A stretch of 64,000 nt of DNA from positions 1,829,001 to 1,893,000 of the forward strand of contig NZ_CP139482.1 in NCBI RefSeq assembly GCF_041222825.1, given 5' to 3'. Under the pieces are notes generated by a model. The model made no database searches, was not told the origin of the DNA, and saw nothing but the letters and a program-made list of their open reading frames with translations. This DNA comes from Candidatus Thalassolituus haligoni (GTDB lineage: Bacteria; Pseudomonadota; Gammaproteobacteria; Pseudomonadales; Oceanobacteraceae). Position 1 is the first letter of the stretch; each line of letters begins with the position of its first letter. The translations under genes and the position numbers were made by a program. Below, in pieces: positions 9,407 through 64,000 of the stretch.

Positions 9407-10825
9407 ATGACCGGAAAAACACTGTACGACAAACTTTGGCAACAGCACGTCGTTAAAGAACGCGATGATGGTACTGCACTGATCTACATCGATCGCCAGT
9501 TATTGCACGAAGTAACGTCTCCCCAGGCGTTCGAGGGACTGCGTATTGCCGGGCGCAAGCCATGGCGTCTGGACGCCAACCTGGCGACGCCGGATCACAA
9601 CGTGCCGACCACCGCCATCGAGCGTGAGTCTGGTGTCGACGGTATTGTTGATCCGGTATCCAAAATCCAGGTGGTAACACTCGATAACAACTGTGATGAG
9701 TTCGGCATTACTGAATTCAAGATGAAAGACAAGCGTCAAGGCATTGTTCACGTTGTTGGCCCGGAGCAAGGTGCCACCCTGCCTGGGATGACCGTGGTGT
9801 GTGGCGACTCCCATACAGCCACTCACGGTGCTTTCGCGGCTTTGGCTCATGGTATTGGCACTTCGGAAGTTGAGCACGTTCTGGCAACCCAGTGTCTGAT
9901 TCAGCGCAAGATGAAAAACCTGCTGATTCGTGTCGATGGTGAACTGGGCAAGGGCATTACCGGCAAAGACGTGGTGTTGCACGTGATCGGTATCATTGGT
10001 ACCGCTGGCGGTAATGGCTGCGCGATGGAATTTGGTGGCTCTGCCATTCGCTCGATGAGCATGGAAGGCCGTATGACCATGTGTAACATGGCCATCGAAG
10101 CCGGTGCTCGTGTCGGTATGGTCGCGTTTGACAGCATCACGGCAGCTTATGTCAAGGGTCGCCCTTATGCCCCGAACGCCGATCAGTGGGAGCTGGCACT
10201 GGCGGCCTGGCAGGATCTGGTATCCGATGACGATGCCGTATTTGACAAGGTGGTCGAGGTGCGCGCTGAAGATATCAAGCCGCAGGTTACCTGGGGGACT
10301 TCCCCTGAAATGGTAACCACGATTGATGCCACGGTTCCTGCTCTGGAAGACGCACGGGACGGTGCCCAACGTGCCGGCTTTGAACGTGCCTATGCCTACA
10401 TGGGGCTGGAGCCGGGCCAGAAAATCACCGATATCAAGCTGGATCGTGTGTTTATCGGCTCCTGCACCAACAGCCGGATTGAAGACTTGCGTCAGGCGGC
10501 GGCAGTGGCACAAGGCCGCAAGGTTGCTGACAGTGTTTTACAGGCGTTAGTGGTGCCGGGTTCCGGTCTGGTCAAGGAGCAGGCTGAGCAAGAAGGTCTC
10601 GACAAGATTTTTGTCGAAGCCGGTTTTGAATGGCGCGAGCCGGGCTGTTCCATGTGTCTGGCGATGAATGCTGACAGGTTGGGGCAGGGCGAGCATTGTG
10701 CCTCGACCTCCAACCGCAACTTTGAAGGTCGTCAGGGCTATGGCGGTCGCACCCATCTGGTCAGCCCGGCGATGGCCGCCGCTGCCGCGATTGCGGGTCA
10801 CTTTGTTGACGTTCGTGAATTCTGA
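9407..10825 (+). CDS. leuC: 3-isopropylmalate dehydratase large subunit
   Basis: 472 aa from ATG 9407, preceded at 6-nt spacing by TAAGGAG; a GTG 45 bp upstream lacks such a site. It begins [16 protein letters not shown], typical LeuC. The [4Fe-4S] cluster cysteines are visible in [13 protein letters not shown] and in [11 protein letters not shown]. With LeuD it isomerises 2-isopropylmalate to 3-isopropylmalate in leucine synthesis (cytoplasm). leuD follows after 14 bp. Confidence 0.97.
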
Positions 10826-10839
10826 TCCGGAGTAATACC

Positions 10840-11487
10840 ATGAGAGCATTTACTGTACACACCGGCCTTGTGGCACCGATGGATCGTGCCAACGTCGATA
10901 CCGATATGATCATCCCGAAACAGTTTCTGAAATCGATCAAACGCAGCGGATTTGGCCCGAATCTGTTTGACGAGCTGCGTTACCTGGATGAAGGTCAGCC
11001 CGATGCTGACAACAGCGGGCGTCCGCTGAATCCGGATTTTGTGCTGAATCAACCGCGCTACCAGGGTGCGTCTGTGCTGATTGCCCGCGAGAACTTCGGT
11101 TGTGGCTCCAGTCGTGAACACGCCCCCTGGGCACTGGAGGATTTCGGCTTCCGGGTTGTTATCGCGCCGAGTTACGCTGATATATTCTTCAATAACTGCT
11201 TCAAGAATGGCTTGTTGCCTATCGTGCTGGCGGAAGAGACGGTAGAGCGCCTGTTCAAGGCCGTTGCCGGGAGCGAAGGGTACGAACTCACCATCGACCT
11301 GGAAAAGCAGCTGATTCTGACACCCGATGGCCAGGATATACCCTTTGAAGTAGATGCCTTCCGCAAATACTGTTTGTTGAATGGCTTTGACGATATTGGC
11401 CTCACGTTACAGGATGCGGATGATATTCGTAGCTACGAAGAAGCCCGTCGCGTGTCTTCTCCCTGGTTGTTTAACGCAGGCTCCTGA
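10840..11487 (+). CDS. leuD: 3-isopropylmalate dehydratase small subunit
   Basis: 215 aa, family-typical. It contains [14 protein letters not shown] near the N-terminus and [15 protein letters not shown], the swivelling-domain signature shared with aconitase. Partner of LeuC. The ribosome binding site CGGAG precedes the start. leuB follows after 82 bp, with a hairpin in the gap; in Pseudomonas this gap often carries a methyltransferase gene, absent here. Confidence 0.97.
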
Positions 11488-11524
11488 GTCGTTTGTCGGC
11501 TTGGATAACCCCATGAATATCACA

Positions 11525-11548
11525 GTGGCAGCCTATGACTGCTGCCAC
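11525..11548. repeat. Hairpin between leuD and leuB
   Basis: GTGGCAGC, 8-base loop, GCTGCCAC: perfect 8-bp stem in the 82-bp leuD-leuB gap, without a T-run. Likely an mRNA stem that tunes or protects the leuCD part of the transcript rather than a terminator. Confidence 0.6.
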
Positions 11549-11569
11549 AGCAAGTAACAGGAAATAATA

Positions 11570-12646
11570 ATGAGCAAGAAAATTCTGGTTTTGCCAGGTG
11601 ATGGTATTGGCCCTGAAATTGTCGCCGAGGCGGTCAAGGTTTTGGAGCATATCAATAGTCGCTTTAAACTGGGGCTGGAAATAGATCATGGCCTGGTCGG
11701 TGGCACGGCTTACGACGAAACCGGCTTTCCGCTGCCGGAAGAAAGCCTGAACAAGGCCATCGCTGCCGATGCCATTCTGCTCGGTGCTGTCGGTGGCCCG
11801 CAGTGGGACAAGTTGGAAGATCGCTCCAAACGTCCGGAACAAGGATTGCTGGATATTCGCAAGAATCTGGGCCTGTTTGGCAACCTGCGTCCAGCCATTC
11901 TGTACCCGCAGCTGGCCGATGCTTCGACACTGAAGCCGGAAGTGGTTTCCGGTCTGGATATTCTGATTGTCCGCGAGCTGACCGGCGGTATTTATTTCGG
12001 CCAGCCACGGGGTATTCGTACTCTGGAAAATGGCGAGCGTGAAGGTTACAACACCTACGTTTATAACGAATCCGAGATTCGTCGTATTGGTCGTGTCGCC
12101 TTTGAATCGGCGATGAAGCGCAACAAGAAACTGTGCTCGGTCGACAAGGCCAATGTACTGGAAGTGACCGTGCTATGGCGCGAAATTATGGAAGAGTTGT
12201 CGAAAGAATACCCAGAAGTCGAATTGTCCCATATGTACGTCGATAATGCGGCGATGCAGCTGGTGAGGGCACCGAAACAGTTTGACGTTATGGTAACCGG
12301 CAATATGTTTGGCGATATCCTGTCGGATGCAGCAGCGATGCTGACCGGTTCTATCGGTATGTTGCCATCGGCCTCACTGGACAAAAACAACAAGGGCATG
12401 TATGAACCTTGCCATGGTTCGGCTCCGGATATTGCCGGTCAGGGGCTTGCCAATCCGTTGGCAACTATCCTCTCTGTAGCCATGATGCTACGGTATAGCC
12501 TGAATGAAGGCGCGGCAGCAGATGTTATTGAAGCAGCGGTCAGCAAGGTACTGGATCAGGGGTTGCGTACCGGAGATATTTTCTCTGCCGGTATGACCCG
12601 TGTCAGTACCAGTGAAATGGGCGAAGCGGTACTGGCTGCGCTGTAA
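11570..12646 (+). CDS. leuB: 3-isopropylmalate dehydrogenase
   Basis: 358 aa, typical. It starts [18 protein letters not shown] and carries the substrate and metal motif in [20 protein letters not shown], with the catalytic Tyr in [13 protein letters not shown] and Lys in [13 protein letters not shown]. It oxidatively decarboxylates 3-isopropylmalate with NAD+. AACAGGAAATAATA provides the ribosome binding site. It is followed by a hairpin terminator and asd. Confidence 0.97.
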
Positions 12647-12709
12647 AGCAGTCTTGAAATCCGCGCTATTTTGTACTGACCGGATACTCCGGATGCTCGT
12701 TTGGAATGC

Positions 12710-12731
12710 AAGCCGCGCCTGTCGCGGTTTT
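12710..12731 (+). terminator. Hairpin between leuB and asd
   Basis: AAGCCGCG, 5-base loop, CGCGGTTTT: a stem of 5 GC pairs extended by G-T and A-T pairs with a short T tract, 64 bp after leuB and 28 bp before asd. It probably limits read-through from leuCDB into asd. Confidence 0.6.
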
Positions 12732-53286: not shown

Positions 53287-54120
53287 TCAGGACTTCTGGA
53301 AAATATTCTGATAGACGTAGTTGGTTGCTTCGACGAAGCCATCAATGCTGCCACAGTCAAAGCGGCGGCCACGGAATTTATAGGCGATAACCCTGCCTTC
53401 CTGGGCTTGTTTCAGCAGAGCGTCAGTGATCTGGATTTCACCATTGATGCCTGCACCTGTTTCTTCGATTTTAGGGAAGATATCTGGAGTCAGAATGTAA
53501 CGGCCAATAATGGCAAGGTTGCTGGGTGCTTCTTCCTTGGCTGGTTTTTCGACCATGTTGCTGACGCGATAAACGCCTGGCTCAATCTCTTCTCCGGCGA
53601 TAACACCGTATTTGTGAATGGTGTCTTCAGGCACTTCCTGCACTGCAACAACGGAACAGCCATACTTCTCGTGAATTTTGACCATCTGCGCCAATACGCC
53701 TTCGTCACCTTCATCGGCAACACAAAGGTCGTCAGCCAGTACGACACCAAAGGCTTCGTCGCCCATCAGATACTGTCCAGTCAGGATGGCGTGTCCCAGA
53801 CCTTTCATTTCATTCTGCCGGGTGTAAGCAAAGTCATTTTCATTCATCAGATTACGAATGGACGAAATCAGCGTTTCTTTGCTGGTGCCCTGAATCTGAT
53901 GTTCCAGCTCGAAGCTGATGTCAAAATGATCGGCGATGGCGCGTTTGCCACGGCCAGTGATAAATCCCATGAAGTTCATGCCAGCTTCGCTGGCTTCCTC
54001 TACGCCGTATTGCACCAGTGGCTTGTTAACGATCGGCAGCATTTCCTTGGGCATGGCTTTGGTCGCCGGAAGAAAACGGGTGCCGTATCCGGCAACTGGG
54101 AATAAACACTTGCGAACCAT
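53287..54120 (-). CDS. galU: UTP-glucose-1-phosphate uridylyltransferase
   Basis: 277 aa. The nucleotide-binding start MVRKCLFPVAGYGTRFLPAT is followed by KAMPKEMLPIVNKPLVQYGVEEA, a standard GalU. It makes UDP-glucose for envelope polysaccharides and, in this neighbourhood, a likely glucosyl donor for glucosyl-3-phosphoglycerate. AAGGATC precedes the ATG. It is divergent from zwf-pgl. Confidence 0.96.
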   Translation of the reverse strand: MVRKCLFPVAGYGTRFLPATKAMPKEMLPIVNKPLVQYGVEEASEAGMNFMGFITGRGKRAIADHFDISFELEHQIQGTSKETLISSIRNLMNENDFAYTRQNEMKGLGHAILTGQYLMGDEAFGVVLADDLCVADEGDEGVLAQMVKIHEKYGCSVVAVQEVPEDTIHKYGVIAGEEIEPGVYRVSNMVEKPAKEEAPSNLAIIGRYILTPDIFPKIEETGAGINGEIQITDALLKQAQEGRVIAYKFRGRRFDCGSIDGFVEATNYVYQNIFQKS

Positions 54121-54554
54121 ATTCGATCCTTCTTATTAACAATTAAACAAAAATTTCCGTGAACACTAAGGCTGGTTTATGTCATTTGTGAGTCATGTCA
54201 CAGATCGTCAGTGATCATGTCTCAAAGGTAACTGATTGTAAACGCCACGATATCCGGGAAGACATCGGCCGTTGGTCTCACGTTGCACGGCCAGTATGGG
54301 GTTCTTGGAGATGCAGATGCCATGCCTGATTGTTATGTTTATGCAGACCGGCACGATCTGTACCGGATGGCCTCCGATTGCTGCGTCGACCGAAGTGGTC
54401 ATTTCCGGGCAGGTATTTGATGGTTGATTGTCGCATTGCAATCAACTTGTGGCACTCTGCCTATACTTTTTGTGCAGTCACTGCTTTTGCCTGAATTTCA
54501 GCTGAAGCGGCTGTGGTTCTGGTTTCCATTACGTAGATAGGGATCGGGGGATGT
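54121..54554. other. galU / zwf divergent intergenic region
   Basis: 434 bp without a convincing gene. I looked for a HexR-type palindrome (TGTAATT-AATTACA) and found none. A TATACT at about 54467 could be a -10 for zwf but lacks a -35 at good spacing. A short dyad GACC-N5-GGTC occurs near 54390. A 77-codon open stretch on the minus strand looks like chance. Confidence 0.5.
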
Positions 54555-56012
54555 ATGCAGATCAGTGCACCGTTTGAATTGGTACTCTTTGGCGGAATGG
54601 GCGATCTGGCGCAACGGAAGTTGCTGCCAGCACTCTACTTGCTTCAGCGTGATGGTCGTTTGCCTGAAGGCAAAATTATCTCTGTTACTCGGAGGGAACT
54701 TGAGCACGAAGACTACATAGAGCAAGTGCGCAAGGCATTGACGACGCACGTTGCCAAGGAATATCTCGAAGAAGCTGCCTGGACTGAATTTGCCACTAAA
54801 CTGCAATGTGTCAGTCTTGATGCAACGGATGAGTCCGCTTATAGCGTGTTAGCCGATGTTTTGGCGAAAGGGGATCCCAACCGGGTTTTTTATCTGGCGA
54901 CGGGTTCTGCGTTGTTTTCGCCTATTTGCAAGGGGCTGAAGCAGATAGGTTTGATTGGTTCGTGCACCAATGTGGTGCTTGAAAAGCCAATAGGGCACGA
55001 TCTTGAGTCTGCCCAGGCGATCAATCGCTCCGTGGGAGAGTATGTTGATGAGTCACATATCTACCGGATTGATCACTATCTCGGTAAGGAAACGGTGCAA
55101 AATCTGTTGGTGTTGCGGTTCGCCAACTCCTTGTTTGAGTCTCAATGGAACCAGAAGTACATCGATCACATCGAAATTACTATTGCAGAATCCATTGGTG
55201 TCGAGAAGCGGGCCGAGTTCTACGAACAGGTAGGCGCGATGCGCGATATGTTCCAGAATCATCTGCTGCAACTATTGTGTATTGTGGCTATGGAGCCGCC
55301 GGCGAAACTGGAAACCGATGCGGTCAGGGATGAAAAAGTAAAGGTACTCAAGGCACTCAAACCCATTGTCGGGGAAGCCATTAACCGAAATGTGGTACGC
55401 GGTCAGTACGATGCAGGTGTGTCGGATGGTAAACCGGTTCCACCGTATCGTGAGGAACCTGGCGTGCATCACAAAAGCAACACCGAGACTTTTATTGCTG
55501 CCAAGGTTGAAATTGATAACTGGCGCTGGGCTGGGGTGCCATTTTATTTGCGCTCGGGTAAGCGTTTGGCGGAACGGGCGTGTGAAATTGTCGTCAGTTT
55601 TAAAGAAATACCGCACTCTATTTTTCCGTTACAGCACAAGAGCACCATGGCCAACAAACTGGTGTTCCGCTTGCAACCGGATGAGGGTGTACGTCTTATG
55701 CTATGTGAGAAACGGGTGGGGCCCGGCATGAGTGTCCGGCCAATGAACCTGAGCCTGAATCCGGCTAATCATCGCAAGGCACGGGTGCCTGAAGCTTACG
55801 AACGGTTATTGTTTGATGCCTTGAGTGGCAATGCCACCTTGTTTTTACGCGATGATGAACTGCATGAAGCCTGGCGTTGGGTGGATCCGATTCTACAGTA
55901 CTGGCAAGACGTGGATCTCCGTCCAGAGCCCTATACTTCGGGCACCTGGGGGCCAGCGGCATCGACCTTGCTGCTCGCCAAGGATGGACGTTTATGGGTC
56001 GAAAACAGTTAG
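54555..56012 (+). CDS. zwf: Glucose-6-phosphate dehydrogenase
   Basis: 485 aa. NADP-binding LFGGMGDLAQRKLLPAL near the N-terminus and the substrate motif RIDHYLGKETVQN are intact. It oxidises glucose-6-phosphate to 6-phosphogluconolactone, giving NADPH. Followed by pgl after 11 bp; the edd-eda-glk genes that accompany zwf in Pseudomonas are not here. Confidence 0.96.
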   Translation: MQISAPFELVLFGGMGDLAQRKLLPALYLLQRDGRLPEGKIISVTRRELEHEDYIEQVRKALTTHVAKEYLEEAAWTEFATKLQCVSLDATDESAYSVLADVLAKGDPNRVFYLATGSALFSPICKGLKQIGLIGSCTNVVLEKPIGHDLESAQAINRSVGEYVDESHIYRIDHYLGKETVQNLLVLRFANSLFESQWNQKYIDHIEITIAESIGVEKRAEFYEQVGAMRDMFQNHLLQLLCIVAMEPPAKLETDAVRDEKVKVLKALKPIVGEAINRNVVRGQYDAGVSDGKPVPPYREEPGVHHKSNTETFIAAKVEIDNWRWAGVPFYLRSGKRLAERACEIVVSFKEIPHSIFPLQHKSTMANKLVFRLQPDEGVRLMLCEKRVGPGMSVRPMNLSLNPANHRKARVPEAYERLLFDALSGNATLFLRDDELHEAWRWVDPILQYWQDVDLRPEPYTSGTWGPAASTLLLAKDGRLWVENS

Positions 56013-56023
56013 GAGTGTATTGC

Positions 56024-56725
56024 ATGAGCGACAATCGCTTTGATTCATCCATCGTTCTGGCAAAACAGCTGGCTGATGCGGTCAGCCTTTGCCTGAAAGA
56101 GCGGGTTGAACAAAAGGGAAGGGCCTGTTTGGCGGTGAGTGGTGGCAACACCCCGAAGGCTTTTTTTGAAGAGTTGGGCAAGCGGCAACTGCCTTGGTCT
56201 CATATTCTTGTCACGTTGGTGGATGAGCGCTGGGTGGGTGAGTCTGACCCGTCCAGTAATGCTGGGCTGGTTCGGGAGCATCTGCTGAGAGGCCCGGCCA
56301 AGGCAGCCTATTTTCTGCCACTCAAAAATTCGGCATTAACGCCAGCGGCAGGATTTATGGCCTGTGAAAACAGCCTTCACGAGCAAATATCACGACTGGA
56401 TGTAGCGGTATTAGGCATGGGGTCGGATGGCCATACCGCGTCCTGGTTTCCGCACTCGGCGGCGCTTGACCGGTGTCTGGATGAGAGTGGGTCTGCCTGG
56501 AGTTGCCCGGTTATGGATACCGAACTGGCGATTCCACGCATGACCTTGACCTGGGCAATGCTGAGCCAATGCCAGAAGATTTTTTTACATTTCGAGGGTG
56601 ATGAAAAAAATTCGGTGTTCAATGCTGCCTGCGATCCGGGTCAGCGCCAGAATATTGCTGCCATGCCGGTTCGCACCCTGTTGTTTCAGTCTCAGGTACC
56701 ACTGAGTATATTTCGGACTTCTTGA
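56024..56725 (+). CDS. pgl: 6-phosphogluconolactonase
   Basis: 233 aa from ATG 56024 (AGGAG 8 nt upstream); a longer frame reaches back into zwf but is not needed. Motifs LAVSGGNTPKAFFEEL, LVDERWV, and GMGSDGHTASWFP place it in the Pgl/DevB family. It hydrolyses 6-phosphogluconolactone made by Zwf. Coupled to zwf. Confidence 0.93.
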   Translation: MSDNRFDSSIVLAKQLADAVSLCLKERVEQKGRACLAVSGGNTPKAFFEELGKRQLPWSHILVTLVDERWVGESDPSSNAGLVREHLLRGPAKAAYFLPLKNSALTPAAGFMACENSLHEQISRLDVAVLGMGSDGHTASWFPHSAALDRCLDESGSAWSCPVMDTELAIPRMTLTWAMLSQCQKIFLHFEGDEKNSVFNAACDPGQRQNIAAMPVRTLLFQSQVPLSIFRTS

Positions 56726-56815
56726 CTGGGTTCGGGTTCGGCTACTGGTGTTGGAGAGTGTGCGGGGTCTGAGGCGTTGATTTGCTGGCCCGTTTCGTTA
56801 CTGACCGATAGTGTT

Positions 56816-56843
56816 TTGTTGAGCCGATCTATCATCGTATATG
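56816..56843 (+). promoter_or_regulatory. Possible promoter of the glucosylglycerate phosphorylase gene
   Basis: TTGTTG, 16-bp spacer, TATATG in the 179-bp gap after pgl, ending 61 bp before the ATG. Modest match; the gap suggests separate control from zwf-pgl. Confidence 0.35.
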
Positions 56844-56904
56844 TCATTACGGCACAAAAATGGCAGTAAATTCAGTCTATTGCGACAGCTAACCAGGAAA
56901 GTTT

Positions 56905-58638
56905 ATGTCAAATGACCTGATTACCAGGCTTACCAGACGTCTTCAGAATATTTATCCCGATGTCACTATGGCCGCCGATGTGGCTGCTGAAATTGAACGT
57001 CTGTGTATTAATTTTATGGAAGGCCGCAAAAGCCGGTGTGGAAAAACAGCCGCTGAACAGCGTTGGAGCCAGGAAGACGTCATACTGATCACCTATGGCA
57101 ACAGCGTTCAGCAAGCGGGGGAGGTACCGTTTCAGACGCTCAGTCGGTTTCTCAAGGAACACGTTGCAGATACCCTGAATGCGGTTCACATCTTGCCCTT
57201 TTCCCCTTACAGCTCCGACGACGGCTTCTCGGTGATTGATTACCGCCAGGTGAATCCGGACTGGGGCAACTGGGAAGATGTCGCCAGTATTGCCAAAAAT
57301 TTTGATCTGATGGCTGATCTGGTGGTTAATCATTGTTCCCGTGAAAGCTTGTGGTTTATCGACTATGTGGCGAACTGTGAGCCTTATAGTGACTACTTTA
57401 TCGAAGTGGATCCGGGTACCGATGTGGCAGCGGTTACCCGTCCACGAAATACCCCCTTGCTGACTCCCGTCCATACCCACCGTGGTGTTCGTCATGTCTG
57501 GGCGACGTTCAGTGAAGATCAGATCGATCTCAACTACGCCAATCCCAAGGTGCTGGTTGAGATGATGAACATCATGCTGTTTTACGTTGAGCAGGGTGCA
57601 CGGTTTATTCGGCTGGATGCAATTGCCTACTTGTGGAAGCAAATCGGCACCAACTGCATTCATTTGCCGCAGACTCACGAAGTGGTCAAACTGATGCACG
57701 ATATTGTTGAAGCTGTCGCACCGGAAGTGGTGCTGATCACTGAAACCAATGTGCCAGTCGCTGAAAATCTCAGTTATTTTGGTCATTCAGACGAGGCGCA
57801 CATGGTCTACCAGTTTGGTTTGCCGCCACTGGTATTACATGCGCTGAATCGTGGCAAGTCTGATTATCTGGCCGATTGGGCCAGTAAGATTCCGCCGTTG
57901 CCGGAAGGTTGTACCTACCTTAATTTTACCGCATCCCACGACGGTATTGGCGTGCGTCCGGTGGAAGGAATTCTGCCAGATCACGAGGTGGAAAACCTGA
58001 TTGACTGTATGCACAAGTTTGGTGGTTTCGTCAGTATGAAGGCAAACCCCGACGGTACAGAGAGTCCATACGAAATCAATATTGCTCTGTTTGATGCCTG
58101 TATGGGCACCCGCCGTGGCCCTGATCATTTTCAGGTACAGCGGTTTTTGTGCTCACAGGCGATTATGCTGGCGATGCAGGGGATTCCAGCCGTTTATATT
58201 CACAGCCTGACGGCCAGTCCGAACGATCTTGCTCACGTTGAACAAACCGGGCGCACCCGATCCATTAATCGACGCATCTGGAATCGTGAAGAGCTGGATG
58301 TGTTGCTGGGTAACCCGGTGACTCCCCAGGCCGAGGTCTTTGATCGCTTGCGTGAAATGATCCGGATACGTCGGCGTCAGCCTGCGTTCCATCCTGACGC
58401 CCGTCAGGAGGTGATCCGCATCAATTCAGATCTGTTTATTCTCAAGCGCAGCTGTGGCGATAGCGGCCAAACTGTTTTTGCCATCTCGAACGTGACGGAG
58501 CGACACATGGAGTTGCCGTTGGCCAGTCTGGGTTTCCTGGTATTGGGGATGAGTGATTTGCTGGCGACCGGGGCTGGGCCGCTGGGAGAAACCCTGATGA
58601 TGGGGCCTTATCAGACGGTGTGGTTAACCAGCGAGTGA
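56905..58638 (+). CDS. Glucosylglycerate phosphorylase-like GH13_18 enzyme
   Basis: 577 aa. Sucrose phosphorylase-family barrel. Nucleophile Asp238 (GARFIRLDAIAYLWK), acid/base Glu280 (VVLITETNVP) and transition-state Asp346 (FTASHDGIG) are all present, as is HILPFSPYSSDDGFSVIDY. From memory it resembles E. coli YcjM closely along its length, and YcjM-type proteins act on 2-O-alpha-glucosyl-D-glycerate, giving glucose-1-phosphate and D-glycerate. The opposing operon makes glucosylglycerate and phosphorylates glycerate, which supports that specificity over sucrose. Cytoplasmic. Confidence 0.85.
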   Translation: MSNDLITRLTRRLQNIYPDVTMAADVAAEIERLCINFMEGRKSRCGKTAAEQRWSQEDVILITYGNSVQQAGEVPFQTLSRFLKEHVADTLNAVHILPFSPYSSDDGFSVIDYRQVNPDWGNWEDVASIAKNFDLMADLVVNHCSRESLWFIDYVANCEPYSDYFIEVDPGTDVAAVTRPRNTPLLTPVHTHRGVRHVWATFSEDQIDLNYANPKVLVEMMNIMLFYVEQGARFIRLDAIAYLWKQIGTNCIHLPQTHEVVKLMHDIVEAVAPEVVLITETNVPVAENLSYFGHSDEAHMVYQFGLPPLVLHALNRGKSDYLADWASKIPPLPEGCTYLNFTASHDGIGVRPVEGILPDHEVENLIDCMHKFGGFVSMKANPDGTESPYEINIALFDACMGTRRGPDHFQVQRFLCSQAIMLAMQGIPAVYIHSLTASPNDLAHVEQTGRTRSINRRIWNREELDVLLGNPVTPQAEVFDRLREMIRIRRRQPAFHPDARQEVIRINSDLFILKRSCGDSGQTVFAISNVTERHMELPLASLGFLVLGMSDLLATGAGPLGETLMMGPYQTVWLTSE

Positions 58639-58658
58639 GGTGTCACCAGCCGCTGTAA

Positions 58659-58706
58659 GCACCAGTCACCTGCGGGCAGAGATTCCGTCGCACGGGTGAC
58701 TGGTGC
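58659..58706. terminator. 12-bp dyad between the convergent phosphorylase and gpgS genes
   Basis: GCACCAGTCACC (58659-58670) and GGTGACTGGTGC (58695-58706), perfect, with a 24-base loop; no T-run. It sits between the two stop codons, so it probably ends or stabilises both mRNAs. Confidence 0.65.
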
Positions 58707-58718
58707 TGCCAAAGAGCG

Positions 58719-59930
58719 TCAGGCGTTGTCTTCTTCAACGGCTTCGTAAAGACGATCGAGAATATCCGGAATGGCTGATATCACCCGATTCCAGCTGGGA
58801 ATAAAGGGTGTTTCCATTGGGTTTTCAAGAAAATAATCGCCCGCATGCATGATGTTTTCTGCAAACAGTTCAACGGCTTCTTCTTCCTTGTGGCGATCCA
58901 GAGTCAAGCCGTTCATGCGGGCGTCGTTATAATAGGTTTCGACAAAATCCAGTGCCACGCGAAAATAGGTTGCTTTGATGGTGCGGAACGTTTCGTTGGT
59001 AAAAACCTCACCCTGAGTGGCCAGTTTACGGAAAATGGCCTTGCAGATATCGGTACTCATTTTGGAAAGGCCCAGCGCCGCATCTTCGGCTGATAGCGGC
59101 TGATGCTTGTGATCATAGTTGTCACAAATATCCACCTGACAGAGCCGGTTGGTGCTGTAGTTGCGATTCATCTCTGACAATACGCCGATTTCCAGGCCCC
59201 AGTCACTCGGAATTCTCAGATCGTTCAGAACGTCGACGCGCATGGAAAACTCACCGGACAGCGGGTAGCGAAAGCTGTCCAGAAAGTCGAGGTACTCTTT
59301 ATGCCCAAGAACCTTTTTTAAAGCCCGGATCAGAGGGGTTACCAGCAGTCGGCTGACGCGTCCGTTCATTTTGTTATCAGCAATACGGGCGTAGTAGCCT
59401 TTGGCAAATTCGTAGTTGAACGACGGGTTGGCGACTGGGTAAATCAGTCGCGCCAGCAGGCTGCGATCGTAGGTGATGATGTCGCAGTCGTGCAGTGCAA
59501 CGGCTTCCGCCCTGCCAGAGGCGAGTATATAGCCGTAGCAGTACCAGACGTTACGGCCCTTGCCCATTTCTTTGGGAGCCAGACCTTTTTCTTCCAGCAG
59601 TGAGTCAATCTTGCGCAGTCGTGGGCCGTCGTTCCAGAGCACCCGGTGATGTTGTGGCAGGCGAGAAAATTCATCCTTGGCGTGTTTGTATTCTGCTTCA
59701 TCGGCCTGATCCAGGCCGATGACAATTTCATTAAGGTAAGGAACTTCACAAATTTCGTTAATGATGTGGCCGAGAGCAGGCCCTTGAAGTTCAGAGTAAA
59801 GCGAGGGCAGTACCAGAGACATCGGACGTACGCGGGAAAAGCTCAGTAGCTCTTTTTCCATTTCTTCCAGCGGGCGATCGACCAGGTTGTGCAGGGTGGT
59901 GATCGTTCCGTTCTGGTAAAAGTCAGCCAT
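58719..59930 (-). CDS. gpgS: Glucosyl-3-phosphoglycerate synthase
   Basis: 403 aa, GT81-type retaining glycosyltransferase. The DxD metal motif is Asp148-Cys-Asp150 in AVALHDCDIITYD; GKGRNVWYCYGY is the conserved acceptor or donor loop, and SGEFSMRVDVL follows. It transfers glucose from an NDP-glucose (UDP-, ADP- or GDP-; not decidable here) to D-3-phosphoglycerate. GGAG 7 nt upstream; it overlaps the phosphatase gene by 8 bp, so the two steps are coupled. Last gene of a three-gene operon. Confidence 0.88.
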   Translation of the reverse strand: MADFYQNGTITTLHNLVDRPLEEMEKELLSFSRVRPMSLVLPSLYSELQGPALGHIINEICEVPYLNEIVIGLDQADEAEYKHAKDEFSRLPQHHRVLWNDGPRLRKIDSLLEEKGLAPKEMGKGRNVWYCYGYILASGRAEAVALHDCDIITYDRSLLARLIYPVANPSFNYEFAKGYYARIADNKMNGRVSRLLVTPLIRALKKVLGHKEYLDFLDSFRYPLSGEFSMRVDVLNDLRIPSDWGLEIGVLSEMNRNYSTNRLCQVDICDNYDHKHQPLSAEDAALGLSKMSTDICKAIFRKLATQGEVFTNETFRTIKATYFRVALDFVETYYNDARMNGLTLDRHKEEEAVELFAENIMHAGDYFLENPMETPFIPSWNRVISAIPDILDRLYEAVEEDNA

Positions 59931-60753
59931 GACCAGGCTCCTTGGATAATTGTTCTAATAATGTGAGTATTTCAGTATTCCAGCCGGTTGGCCCTTTGTG
60001 GGTAGCCGTTCTGGCATCGGGATGCTGCAGTGTCAGGGTCTGGTTTTCACCCGGAATAACAATCGGGTAATCGGCAGCTTCCAGCATGGCGCGGTCGTTT
60101 TCCCCATCGCCCAGAGCAACGAGACGGGGAGTGGTCTGCCATTGGTGTTGATAATACTGACGGAAAAACTCTAACCCGCTGGCTTTGTTGGTGGTGCCCA
60201 TTACATGGTAAAAACGTCCGCCCTTGGTGAGGGTCAAATGATACTCCGCCAGTCGTTGCCGGAAGCGGTCGAGTGCCTCGTCACTGTCGTGCCACAGCAG
60301 TGGTTCAGAGGCCGCCCGTTTCTTGGCGAGCCAGGCGTTATCTTGTGTCAGTCCCGTCATTGCTGCGACTTCGGCGGCGGGCATGTCGTTAAATCCCCGG
60401 AAGCGAAAACCTTCTTTGTGCAGCTGGTGCAAGGTCTTGAGGATGTCAACGTAGCTAACGCCGAGCACTTCGCTGTTAAGGCCGCTTTCATCGGGTTTGG
60501 GGATATGGATCACGCTGCCGTTTTCGCAGACAAACGGATAGCGGTTATCCAGCTCGTGGCGCAAGCCAGTGACTTCGTCGCAGGTTTTGCTGGTATTGAA
60601 CAGCACGGGTATGTGTCGCTCCCGTAACTGCTTCAGGGCCGGTTTTGCGGCCTTGGCACTGTAACTATGATGATCGAGCAGGGTTCCATCAAGATCGGTC
60701 ATAACGACCAGTGGTAAAGTCGGAATATCAAATTTGCTTGCGTGGGTTGACAT
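59923..60753 (-). CDS. gpgP: Glucosyl-/mannosyl-3-phosphoglycerate phosphatase
   Basis: 276 aa from ATG 60753 (GGGAG at 7 nt; an upstream TTG adds 15 residues). HAD subclass IIB: motif I DLDGT (Asp20, Asp22), a cap domain, and the motif III-IV region LVALGDGENDRAMLEAADYPIVI. MpgP/GpgP family. It removes phosphate from glucosyl-3-phosphoglycerate to give glucosylglycerate. Downstream of the glycerate kinase gene by 22 bp and overlapping gpgS. Confidence 0.86.
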   Translation of the reverse strand: MSTHASKFDIPTLPLVVMTDLDGTLLDHHSYSAKAAKPALKQLRERHIPVLFNTSKTCDEVTGLRHELDNRYPFVCENGSVIHIPKPDESGLNSEVLGVSYVDILKTLHQLHKEGFRFRGFNDMPAAEVAAMTGLTQDNAWLAKKRAASEPLLWHDSDEALDRFRQRLAEYHLTLTKGGRFYHVMGTTNKASGLEFFRQYYQHQWQTTPRLVALGDGENDRAMLEAADYPIVIPGENQTLTLQHPDARTATHKGPTGWNTEILTLLEQLSKEPGHG

Positions 60754-60775
60754 AAAGCGCTCCCGGCGATGGCAA

Positions 60776-61702
60776 TCAGTTGATGTGGTTAACAGCATGC
60801 TGGTTATTCAGTTCCAGTACCAGATCAGCATGCTCTGGCAGATCCCGCAAGGCATTTTCGGTCAGGCGTTGGTAATGCTGGATAAATCTTACCAATCCGG
60901 CGTGATCCAGGCCGCGGTCGTGATCTCCTCTGGCGTGCTTGCGGTTTTCTACTTCCTGTTGTCCACGCCAGTTTAATACGGCTTGCATACCAGGCACCTT
61001 GAGCATAATCAGTCGATCCATCATGGCAAACCAGTCGGCGTAGTCACTGGCCAGCCGTTGGTTAACCCACCGACGCCAGTGGCCATCGGGATCTTCTGTC
61101 GCTTCGAGTTGGTTGGCGGGCTCGTCGAGCTGACTGTCTGCAACGGCATGACAGCCGACGCACCAGCCCTCAAACAGGATCAGATCAACCGGGCCGACAA
61201 TCTGGTGCCAGTTGGATTCTGGCAGCCGGTCGTCGGAGACCTTGTCAAAGGCAGGAATGGTCAGACACTGTCCAGGCTCCAGTTGTTTCAGGTCGGCAAA
61301 TAATTGTCGACCCAAGGCGCTGTCGTGAGTGCCGGGGACACCTCTTGTGGCCAATAGCGGGTGGATAGACTGGCCCAGCGCCTTGCGCTCGTCATGACCC
61401 AAATAGAGGTCGTCAATCGATACAATGGCACAGTTCCAGCCCAGGGCGGCTTTGTATAAGCTGGCCAGTGCCTGACTCAGGGTGGATTTACCAGACCCCT
61501 GGCCGCCATGAATACCAATGACGGGTACACCACCGAGGGTATTTTTTTGCTGGGCAACCCAGGTTGCGACCGGTAGCCAGACGTCCGGCCATTGCTTTAA
61601 CCATGGCTCAGGTAACGACTTCAGGGCTGAACGATTGCTGGCGAATGTGGTGCGCAGGTGGTCATCCAGAGGCCGTTTTGCGGGCCAGAGTGTCGTGGTC
61701 AT
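60776..61702 (-). CDS. D-glycerate 3-kinase (GLYK / phosphoribulokinase-like)
   Basis: 308 aa P-loop kinase. Walker A GIHGGQGSGKST (63-74), then IVSIDDLYLGHDERKAL and the FEGWCVGC motif typical of the plant GLYK/yeast YGR205W group; RLIMLKVPGMQAVLNWR follows. It phosphorylates D-glycerate to 3-phosphoglycerate. GAGGA precedes the ATG. First gene of the operon with gpgP and gpgS; it recycles the glycerate released by the phosphorylase into the acceptor of GpgS. Confidence 0.85.
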   Translation of the reverse strand: MTTTLWPAKRPLDDHLRTTFASNRSALKSLPEPWLKQWPDVWLPVATWVAQQKNTLGGVPVIGIHGGQGSGKSTLSQALASLYKAALGWNCAIVSIDDLYLGHDERKALGQSIHPLLATRGVPGTHDSALGRQLFADLKQLEPGQCLTIPAFDKVSDDRLPESNWHQIVGPVDLILFEGWCVGCHAVADSQLDEPANQLEATEDPDGHWRRWVNQRLASDYADWFAMMDRLIMLKVPGMQAVLNWRGQQEVENRKHARGDHDRGLDHAGLVRFIQHYQRLTENALRDLPEHADLVLELNNQHAVNHIN

Positions 61703-62933: not shown

Positions 62934-64000
62934 TCATGGCGCAACCGAGGCCCGGCGCGGAAAGTCCGGGCTGATTTCCAGTATCAGTGCTTGTAACGGT
63001 CGGAGTAGCAAGGATCCGTTGCGAAAGAGCGGGGCGTCCAGCTGGCTGTTGGCGAGACACTGATCAATCGCATGGCGATGTAGGTTAATTGGCTGTGCCT
63101 GGCTGGAAAAATTCAGCAGTATCAGCAAGCGCTGCTGATCGCAGCGCTCATAGGCCAGTACCTCGTCGGGGCTACCGATGAGTTTGAGCTTGCCCTTGTG
63201 TAAGGCCGGGGTGCGTTTGCGCAGCCACACGAGCTGCCGATACCAGCTGAGCAAGCTGCTGGGGTTGTGGCTCTGATCGGCGACGGTCACTCCTTCCGAA
63301 CGGGTTTCTGGCAGCCAGCTGGTGACGTTGGAAAAGACGTTGGGCGAGTCCCACATCATGGGACGTCGACAGCCATCGCGGCCAGGGTGCAAGGGCCAAT
63401 AACGCTTGCCAACCGGGTCTTGTAATTGGCGTCGGGAAACCGCTTGCTCCGGCATGCCGATTTCTTCACCGTAATAAAGAAACGGCGTACCGCGCAGCGT
63501 TAACAGCATGGCAGCCAGCAAGCGCGCCCGATCAAGGGTTTGTTCATGGGTGGCGTAACGGCTGATATGGCGTTTGACGTCATGATTGCTGAGGGTGTAG
63601 TTCGGCCAGTTCTCGTGGCCGAGCAAATCGATCCATTTACGAATCACACTTCTGAAGGCGGCTGCCGAAAAAGGAGCGCGCAAAAATTCCAGGTTAAACG
63701 CCAGATGTAATTCATCCCCGTTACCGCAATAGCTGGCGGGCAGGCTGGCGTTATCGGAATCGGCGATGAAAATCTCTCCCACCATCATACGGTTTGGATA
63801 CTGATCAACCCACTGACGCATCTGTTTGAGCAGGGTATGCATTTCTGGTTGGTCACGGTCATGGATATGTCTCTGACGGTCGTAAGGGCGGGCTGGTTTG
63901 AACCAATCAGTGGGGTTGTTTTTGAGATCGATCGCCTTGTAAAACAGATTGACCACATCAAGGCGAAAGCCGTCTACACCACGTGCCAGCCAAAATTCCA
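62934..64000 (-). CDS. GH13 alpha-glucosidase (C-terminal part, runs off the window)
   Basis: 354 complete codons up to the right edge; the N-terminus is beyond 64000. The visible part starts just before the nucleophile motif VDGFRLDVVN, followed by MVGEIFIAD (acid/base Glu) and LSNHDVKRH (third acid), then GTPFLYYGEEIGMPE and a C-terminal beta domain. This is the oligo-1,6-glucosidase/alpha-glucosidase type (GH13_23-like). It hydrolyses alpha-glucosides in the cytoplasm. It could feed glucose into the neighbouring pathway or act on glucosyl solutes; that is inference. Confidence 0.85.
   Translation of the reverse strand, partial: EFWLARGVDGFRLDVVNLFYKAIDLKNNPTDWFKPARPYDRQRHIHDRDQPEMHTLLKQMRQWVDQYPNRMMVGEIFIADSDNASLPASYCGNGDELHLAFNLEFLRAPFSAAAFRSVIRKWIDLLGHENWPNYTLSNHDVKRHISRYATHEQTLDRARLLAAMLLTLRGTPFLYYGEEIGMPEQAVSRRQLQDPVGKRYWPLHPGRDGCRRPMMWDSPNVFSNVTSWLPETRSEGVTVADQSHNPSSLLSWYRQLVWLRKRTPALHKGKLKLIGSPDEVLAYERCDQQRLLILLNFSSQAQPINLHRHAIDQCLANSQLDAPLFRNGSLLLRPLQALILEISPDFPRRASVAP

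Follow-up and report, generated by a model that had tools for sequence, protein, structure and literature searches.

A probable glucosylglycerate turnover locus in Candidatus Thalassolituus haligoni, and the glycerate kinases that accompany glucosylglycerate synthesis in gammaproteobacteria

A stretch of 64,000 nucleotides from Candidatus Thalassolituus haligoni (contig NZ_CP139482.1, positions 1,829,001 to 1,893,000; hereafter the window), whose 4.38-Mb genome is a single contig, very probably contains, to judge from its sequence, a locus for the turnover of glucosylglycerate (GGA). Positions 53287-61702 hold seven intact open frames (Table 1): galU on the minus strand, zwf, pgl and the gene for a glucosylglycerate phosphorylase (GGaP) on the plus strand, and gpgS, gpgP and glyK on the minus strand; family scans agree with this gene set, which an earlier annotation made from the letters of the window (the first-pass annotation) had placed there. 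The genes for GGaP, GpgS, GpgP and a glycerate kinase are all linked inside 56905-61702, as in loci of the literature. The assignment draws on gene identities, motifs, linkage, co-occurrence across genomes and the presence of a single glycerate kinase of known type, each established at the level of sequence. The cluster is of an already described kind that is common to many marine relatives, and the locus therefore adds another member to a published type, not a new kind. Its interest rests mainly on the glycerate kinase, which accompanies GGA synthesis in all 48 surveyed genomes that carry gpgS and is sometimes fused to its partners.

In the cycle that we infer, with its substrates, flux directions, donor nucleotide and control, GpgS would combine a nucleoside diphosphate glucose with 3-phosphoglycerate to give glucosyl-3-phosphoglycerate, from which GpgP would remove the phosphate to release GGA, a compatible solute. 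GGaP would split GGA with phosphate into glucose-1-phosphate and D-glycerate, sparing one ATP relative to hydrolysis, and the GLYK-type kinase would phosphorylate the glycerate to 3-phosphoglycerate, at once an intermediate of glycolysis and the acceptor that GpgS uses. Conversion of glucose-1-phosphate to UDP-glucose by GalU would be possible, and GGA could in this way either supply central metabolism or be synthesised anew. Known chemistry puts the price of a complete cycle at one ATP and one UTP, making it a substrate cycle unless controlled; both arms would therefore have to be regulated, probably at the level of enzyme activity when one operon carries both. The saving of one phosphorylation that had been claimed at first pass holds for phosphorolysis as against hydrolysis and is lost for the loop as a whole.

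Loci of GH13_18 glucosylglycerate phosphorylases were reportedly treated by Franceus et al. in 2017. A later paper by Franceus and Desmet gives two marks by which GGaP differs from sucrose phosphorylase: a (T/S)ETN motif at strand beta-5, and Glu instead of Gln in loop A (PMC7178133). The window enzyme has both (TETN at 279-282, and Glu390) together with the further GGaP motifs RLDA and HDG, and it aligns with E. coli YcjM at 40% identity over 556 columns, TETN and the loop-A Glu being present in the two proteins. In an alignment of 107 sequences (106 GGaP rows including YcjM, plus a second enzyme of this type from the same genome), TETN is found in 106 of 106 GGaP rows and the loop-A Glu in all 105 rows readable at that position; the three catalytic acidic residues (the nucleophile Asp238, the acid/base Glu280, and Asp346) are kept in 106 of 106, and the genome’s second enzyme has PEVH and Gln at the two mark positions. 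Presence of both marks supports the prediction, also made at first pass along with the other enzyme assignments, that the GH13 enzyme would phosphorolyse GGA to glucose-1-phosphate and glycerate. It is highly improbable that the enzyme has sucrose phosphorylase or some other GH13_18 specificity and lies in this neighbourhood incidentally: its closest solved structures do bear the names sucrose or glucosylglycerol phosphorylase, and there is a weak match to the sucrose phosphorylase model TIGR03852, but the score of 223 bits is under the cut-off of 334, TETN and the loop-A Glu are in place, the linkage to gpgS is conserved, and the same genome encodes another protein that bears VGAIYQ, the loop of glucosylglycerol phosphorylases. 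Identity with sucrose phosphorylase proper was rejected on the model cut-off and the two marks.

In the synthesis arm, GpgS matches two NCBIfam models under their cut-offs, both of glucosyl-3-phosphoglycerate synthases (NF040724, Table 1; NF010496, 72 bits against a cut-off of 262), with no further NCBIfam model and no Pfam model at E 0.001, and solved structures named glucosyl-3-phosphoglycerate synthase match it weakly (E 1e-4). GpgP passes TIGR01486, the mannosyl-3-phosphoglycerate phosphatase family model, and is under the cut-offs of the narrower models TIGR02461 and TIGR02463. All four dedicated enzymes have intact motifs, as had been noticed earlier: besides those of GGaP, these are GKG and DCD in GpgS, the HAD motifs DLDGTLL, NTSKT and GDGEND in GpgP, and the P-loop GGQGSGKS in GLYK. 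In mycobacteria, GGA primes methylglucose lipopolysaccharide, and GGA might here too be built into something larger, for instance a polysaccharide primer or mannosylglucosylglycerate, instead of staying free; in favour of this view, one surveyed genome (G246) has a mannosylglycerate-synthase-like glycosyltransferase between gpgS and a GpgP fusion. The window cluster, however, has no additional glycosyltransferase among its genes and instead includes a linked phosphorylase that would act on free GGA, which leaves a precursor role very unlikely and a free solute the preferred reading.

Linkage and co-occurrence were surveyed in 370 gammaproteobacterial genomes with single-protein queries (E 1e-30 for gpgS, 1e-80 for GGaP, and 1e-10 for GLYK and gpgP), giving 48 genomes positive for gpgS, 52 for GGaP, 48 for gpgP and 41 for GLYK. 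In this co-occurrence search, of the sort proposed at first pass, gpgS and GGaP occur together in 47 genomes, gpgS without GGaP in 1, and GGaP without gpgS in 5 of the 322 gpgS-free genomes, and every gpgS genome holds a glycerate kinase, a pattern in support of the cycle. gpgP is present in 46 of the 48, directly upstream on the same strand in 45, and GGaP lies within 4 kb of gpgS in 39, the largest gap being 1,420 bases; in the other nine, GGaP is on another contig (4), at least 4.9 kb away (4) or missing (1). GLYK occurs in 16 of the 48 gpgS genomes, adjacent in 15, and in 25 of the 322 without gpgS; the four-gene set in its GLYK form is complete in 13 of the 48. Among named loci (the best 80 of 359, leaning to Alteromonadales), gpgP is found in 80, GGaP in 79 (the contig of the other ends there) and GLYK in 70, the bearers including Alteromonas, Moritella, Shewanella and Oceanobacter. 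The grouping of these genes is far beyond chance, which the survey confirms.

The best solved relatives of the window GLYK are D-glycerate 3-kinases (7xpc, E 5e-18 over residues 61-268; 6ckg, E 2.5e-16). GLYK is present in one copy, and neither GK-II (PF05161) nor GK-I (PF02595) was found in the source genome, so that it is the only glycerate kinase there among the three families searched. These families have unrelated folds. All 48 gpgS genomes hold a member of at least one of them: 16 have GLYK only, 13 GK-I only, 18 GK-II only and 1 both GK-I and GK-II; that is, GK-I is found in 14 and GK-II in 19 of the 32 genomes that lack GLYK, with one having both, and neither was found in the 16 that have it. 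For comparison, 34 of 66 gpgS-free controls hold a kinase (6 GLYK, 8 GK-I and 20 GK-II, with no overlap), a difference from 48 of 48 with a Fisher p of 3.7e-10 for lineages that were not matched; the controls are the first by handle among the 322 once G016 (0.4 Mb) and the GGaP-only genomes G056 and G059 are set aside. The filling of one role by three families lends good support to the kinase as the loop-closing step, which was proposed at first pass and is supported also by its presence in every gpgS genome and by GLYK standing alone in the source genome. By coordinates, the kinase gene adjoins the cluster in 20 of the 48 (15 of 16 with GLYK, 4 of 14 with GK-I and 1 of 19 with GK-II); the four GK-I cases beside or within the cluster are L090, L091, L105 and L098, three of them from one taxonomic family. 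Ten of the 80 named loci are without a GLYK match, and frames of at least 150 residues inspected by eye, with no family scan, upstream in 10 and downstream in 9, held no replacement kinase beside the cluster; kinase adjacency is therefore not universal.

In some lineages the kinase is joined to a partner in one frame. GLYK-GpgP fusions occur in 5 of the 80 named loci (L013, L021, L043, L059 and L079, from Moritella, an Alteromonadaceae bacterium and a Glaciecola bin) and in L101 and L102, and listed protein relatives come also from Methylophaga, Thalassotalea and Pseudoalteromonas. GpgP is fused to GK-II in L103 (G246; 10552-12714), and in L098 (4093-6093; G048) a single frame of 666 residues immediately upstream of gpgP encodes GK-I joined to GalU. 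Pfam confirms both domains in L098 and L103; in the GLYK fusions it shows the phosphatase half and gave no GLYK model, the kinase half being a BLAST match to the window GLYK. For the L101 protein, all 120 relatives listed (the best 120 of 413 at E 1e-40) contain both halves; for L103, a match to the window GpgP (32-38% identity) and GK-II occur together in 120 of 120 listed (the best 120 of 7353 at E 1e-60), and for L098, GK-I and GalU in 40 of the best 120 listed. These counts cover the best 120 listed rows of each search and include the query or near copies, and since the rows are those with the best full-length scores, fusions are favoured among them; the searches mark the fusions as families and not single errors. 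Cluster DNA was read in 28 of the 48 gpgS genomes besides that of the window, a selection guided in part by a missing GLYK or by unusual frames, and the share with fusions is therefore not a rate.

Some relatives of the L103 fusion come from Sulfuricella, Sulfurimicrobium and Gallionella, and some are labelled hydroxypyruvate reductase, glycerate 2-kinase or HAD hydrolase. Four further proteins (P0048, P0050, P0051 and P0057) combine GalU with family 2 glycosyltransferase domains, the glycosyltransferase coming first in P0048. No description of the GLYK-GpgP, GpgP-GK-II or GK-I-GalU fusions was found in open-licence PMC literature, judged from listings and the openings of abstracts, and they may be new to the literature.

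GalU and glycerate kinase would convert the products of GGaP into substrates of GpgS, and the fusions therefore suggest that recovered glycerate, and at times glucose-1-phosphate, is fed back into synthesis, at least in some lineages. More tentatively, salvage enzymes welded onto the synthesis arm, from three kinase families and with two partners, could form a built-in re-synthesis loop that returns both phosphorolysis products, or glycerate lost by GpgP, to GpgS as substrates; ongoing synthesis and breakdown, and not alternation between two opposed operons, would then maintain the GGA pool, and the window would represent the unfused form. A related possibility, to which we give somewhat less credence and hold to be doubtful, is that the kinase serves primarily synthesis, feeding or rescuing 3-phosphoglycerate for GpgS rather than handling breakdown, for example by re-phosphorylating glycerate that a side reaction of GpgP frees from 3-phosphoglycerate. 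It would account for glyK heading the gpgP-gpgS operon in the window instead of lying with GGaP, for the two families in which all listed relatives join GLYK or GK-II to a GpgP or GpgP-like half, and for G246, which has gpgS and the GpgP-GK-II fusion without a GGaP match at E 1e-80. On the other hand, GK-I lies beside GGaP and not GpgP in L090, L091 and L105, GGaP is present in 47 of the 48 gpgS genomes, and G246, the one case without GGaP, carries an additional glycosyltransferase-like gene among those of its cluster; moreover, breakdown and synthesis roles of the kinase are compatible, and neither excludes the other. The kinase in all 48 genomes, its three families and the fusions argue that glycerate recovery is needed wherever these bacteria make GGA.

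Several observations weigh against this reading. GpgS scores under the curated cut-offs, and GLYK passes no Pfam or NCBIfam cut-off. The comparison of 48 with 66 genomes is unmatched for lineage, genome size and habitat, two GGaP-only genomes and one very small genome were excluded from the 66, and about half of these also carry a glycerate kinase; as kinase-bearing gpgS-free genomes also hold one kind each, a single kinase type per genome is in itself no mark of the gpgS group. In 28 of the 48, the kinase gene is not next to the cluster. Finally, G246 has gpgS and a kinase but no GGaP at E 1e-80, and its cluster (L103:7301-14138) contains the mannosylglycerate-synthase-like glycosyltransferase, a mechanosensitive-channel frame and a DUF389 protein, so that its product may differ.

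In the window, GGaP converges on the glyK-gpgP-gpgS operon across a gap of 80 bases, whose RNA fold has an energy of -38.3 kcal/mol (z -3.6 against 200 shuffles). The first-pass annotation had taken the opposite strands, with separate promoters, to fit alternate expression of the two arms under salt or nitrogen stress, a reading that finds little support. Of 39 adjacent gpgS-GGaP pairs, 22 are co-directional, with GGaP behind gpgS, and 17 convergent. Mapped on the GGaP tree, orientation switches 2 times against 18.9 in shuffles, which makes both layouts stable within large GGaP lineages; the tree takes 72 of 106 rows (GGaP, YcjM and the second enzyme), near copies and the cut row L108 being left out, and L093 and L094 were entered as convergent though their GGaP is 4.9 and 6.6 kb away. 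The two arms probably share a transcript in co-directional genomes, and strict alternation therefore cannot be general. Promoter-like sites number 6 against 7.4 expected in shuffles, with none in the gaps before glyK or GGaP, so that separate promoters were not seen and follow only from the convergent strands; terminator-like sites number 21 against 10.4 expected and are scattered. The convergent layout of the window permits separate control without showing it. Two arguments were rejected: that the layout is a recent Oceanobacter oddity, as its 7 cases among the 79 named loci with GGaP (best 80 of 359) had suggested, is contradicted by the 17 of 39 survey pairs and the tree, and the promoter argument for separate control falls with sites at chance level.

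Comparison with known systems places the locus in a published class. According to Franceus and Desmet 2020 (PMC7178133), GGaP genes are frequently accompanied by genes for glycerate kinase, GpgS or GpgP; these GH13_18 loci share with the window TETN and the loop-A Glu as well as the three partners, and the clustering with glycerate kinase, put forward at first pass as the strongest system-level signal, is thus already in print. The window differs in that GGaP is convergent to glyK-gpgP-gpgS, and zwf-pgl and galU happen to adjoin. The same authors describe experimental confirmation of the exact metabolic function of GGaP as still pending (PMC7178133); the comparative data make this physiological role testable, with a kinase in all 48 gpgS genomes, three kinase families, and fusions that name the partners. 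In a study of Prochlorococcus, a glucosylglycerate operon combines, like the window, synthesis with recycling via glucose-1-phosphate, glycerate and 3-phosphoglycerate; it holds a transporter gene, which the window cluster does not, and its kinase step is implied and not named there, the word kinase occurring once, in the reference list (PMC11631117). Synthesis and recycling genes also stand together in Synechococcus PCC 7002, where A2021 (GpgS), A2022 (GGaP) and A2023 (GpgP) have consecutive locus tags, and in Marinobacter, where GpgS, GpgP and GGaP homologues resembling the window set occur together in 198 of 250 isolates surveyed (both from PMC10873239). E. coli YcjM, annotated as glucosylglycerate phosphorylase, has motifs in common with the window enzyme, but ycjM lies beside transporter and sugar-enzyme genes, and no gpgS or gpgP is annotated in the 16 kb read. 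The breakdown arm might serve mainly GGA taken up from outside rather than the cell’s own pool, as is suggested for Prochlorococcus, whose operon has a putative transporter gene and for which uptake has been raised (PMC11631117), and as the ABC transporter genes beside E. coli ycjM, with no gpgS annotated in that stretch, would fit. This is unlikely for the window, where the long frames at 53-62.5 kb are the named genes and pheA and include no transporter (the rest of the genome was not searched for transporters); GGaP without gpgS is, besides, rare (5 of 322 gpgS-free genomes). Turnover of an internal pool remains the preferred reading.

Table 1 Features of the putative GGA turnover locus and its neighbours in the window; functions are predicted
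Feature	Coordinates	Strand	Evidence and remarks
galU, UTP-glucose-1-phosphate uridylyltransferase	53287..54120	-	TIGR01099 382 bits, cut-off 327; glucose-1-phosphate to UDP-glucose
zwf, glucose-6-phosphate dehydrogenase	54555..56012	+	TIGR00871 590 bits, cut-off 401
pgl, 6-phosphogluconolactonase	56027..56725	+	TIGR01198 161 bits, cut-off 124
GGaP, glucosylglycerate phosphorylase, GH13_18 type, 577 aa	56905..58638	+	TETN, loop-A Glu390
15-pair hairpin between the convergent 3' ends of GGaP and gpgS	58658..58707	.	terminator-like, without a T run
gpgS, glucosyl-3-phosphoglycerate synthase, 403 aa	58719..59930	-	NF040724 365 bits, full length, cut-off 700
gpgP, glucosyl-3-phosphoglycerate phosphatase, 277 aa	59923..60756	-	TIGR01486 227 bits, cut-off 165
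glyK, GLYK-type D-glycerate 3-kinase, 308 aa, first gene of the operon	60776..61702	-	similarity to PDB 7xpc and 6ckg, P-loop

The start of gpgP is taken at the inner ATG at 60756, the frame staying open to 60798. With an overlap of 8 bases between gpgP and gpgS and 19 bases from the end of glyK to the start codon used for gpgP, glyK-gpgP-gpgS reads as one operon. Over its 403 residues, the window GpgS is identical to a protein from the metagenome-assembled genome of an uncultured Oceanobacter (L004).

The first-pass annotation had also counted zwf-pgl into the unit. Among the best 80 of 359 named loci, with flanks of up to 8 kb, zwf-pgl and galU adjoin the cluster in six only (L004-L009), all close kin from the Oceanobacter, Parathalassolituus and Bacterioplanes group, with other genes intervening in L008 and L009; we therefore judge zwf-pgl to be local neighbours and not parts of the cycle. 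galU may contribute to the cycle biochemically, but in the window GGaP is on the other strand and the glyK operon lies apart from it; galU was found in two of 29 stretches from 28 further genomes, fused to GK-I in L098 and directly behind GGaP in L102. In the Bacterioplanes locus, edd- and eda-type genes (by Pfam) lie between pgl and GGaP (L009:11503-13942), and GGaP may therefore have landed behind an Entner-Doudoroff operon.

Two clusters are unusual in other ways. On a contig binned as Desulfuromonadales (L065), glyK-gpgP-gpgS and a convergent GGaP occur with a GpgS 76% identical to that of the window, which reflects either transfer or mis-binning. In G167 (C1:456082-458193), the gpgS match covers the last 184 residues only and the next GGaP holds one internal TAA; this copy is possibly decaying, or the assembly is in error.

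The source genome also encodes putative components for a second glucoside. A glucosylglycerol-phosphate synthase (TIGR02398, 726 bits, over the cut-off) fused to a phosphatase-type HAD domain lies at about 0.78 Mb (L085:1447-3717), and the second phosphorylase-like enzyme, with its VGAIYQ loop, at 3.52 Mb (L002:1342-2784); VGAIYQ is given as a glucosylglycerol phosphorylase mark in PMC7178133. The glucosylglycerol system of Marinobacter (GGPPS and glucosylglycerol phosphorylase) has the same synthase-phosphatase-phosphorylase logic as the GGA locus, for another solute, and in the source genome this pair for making and phosphorolysing lies far apart. Closer to the cluster, a GH13 alpha-glucosidase-like gene of 539 residues stands behind pheA and runs past the end of the window (62934-64000; L003:508-2127); its best NCBIfam model, under the cut-off, is named beta-galactosidase BglA.

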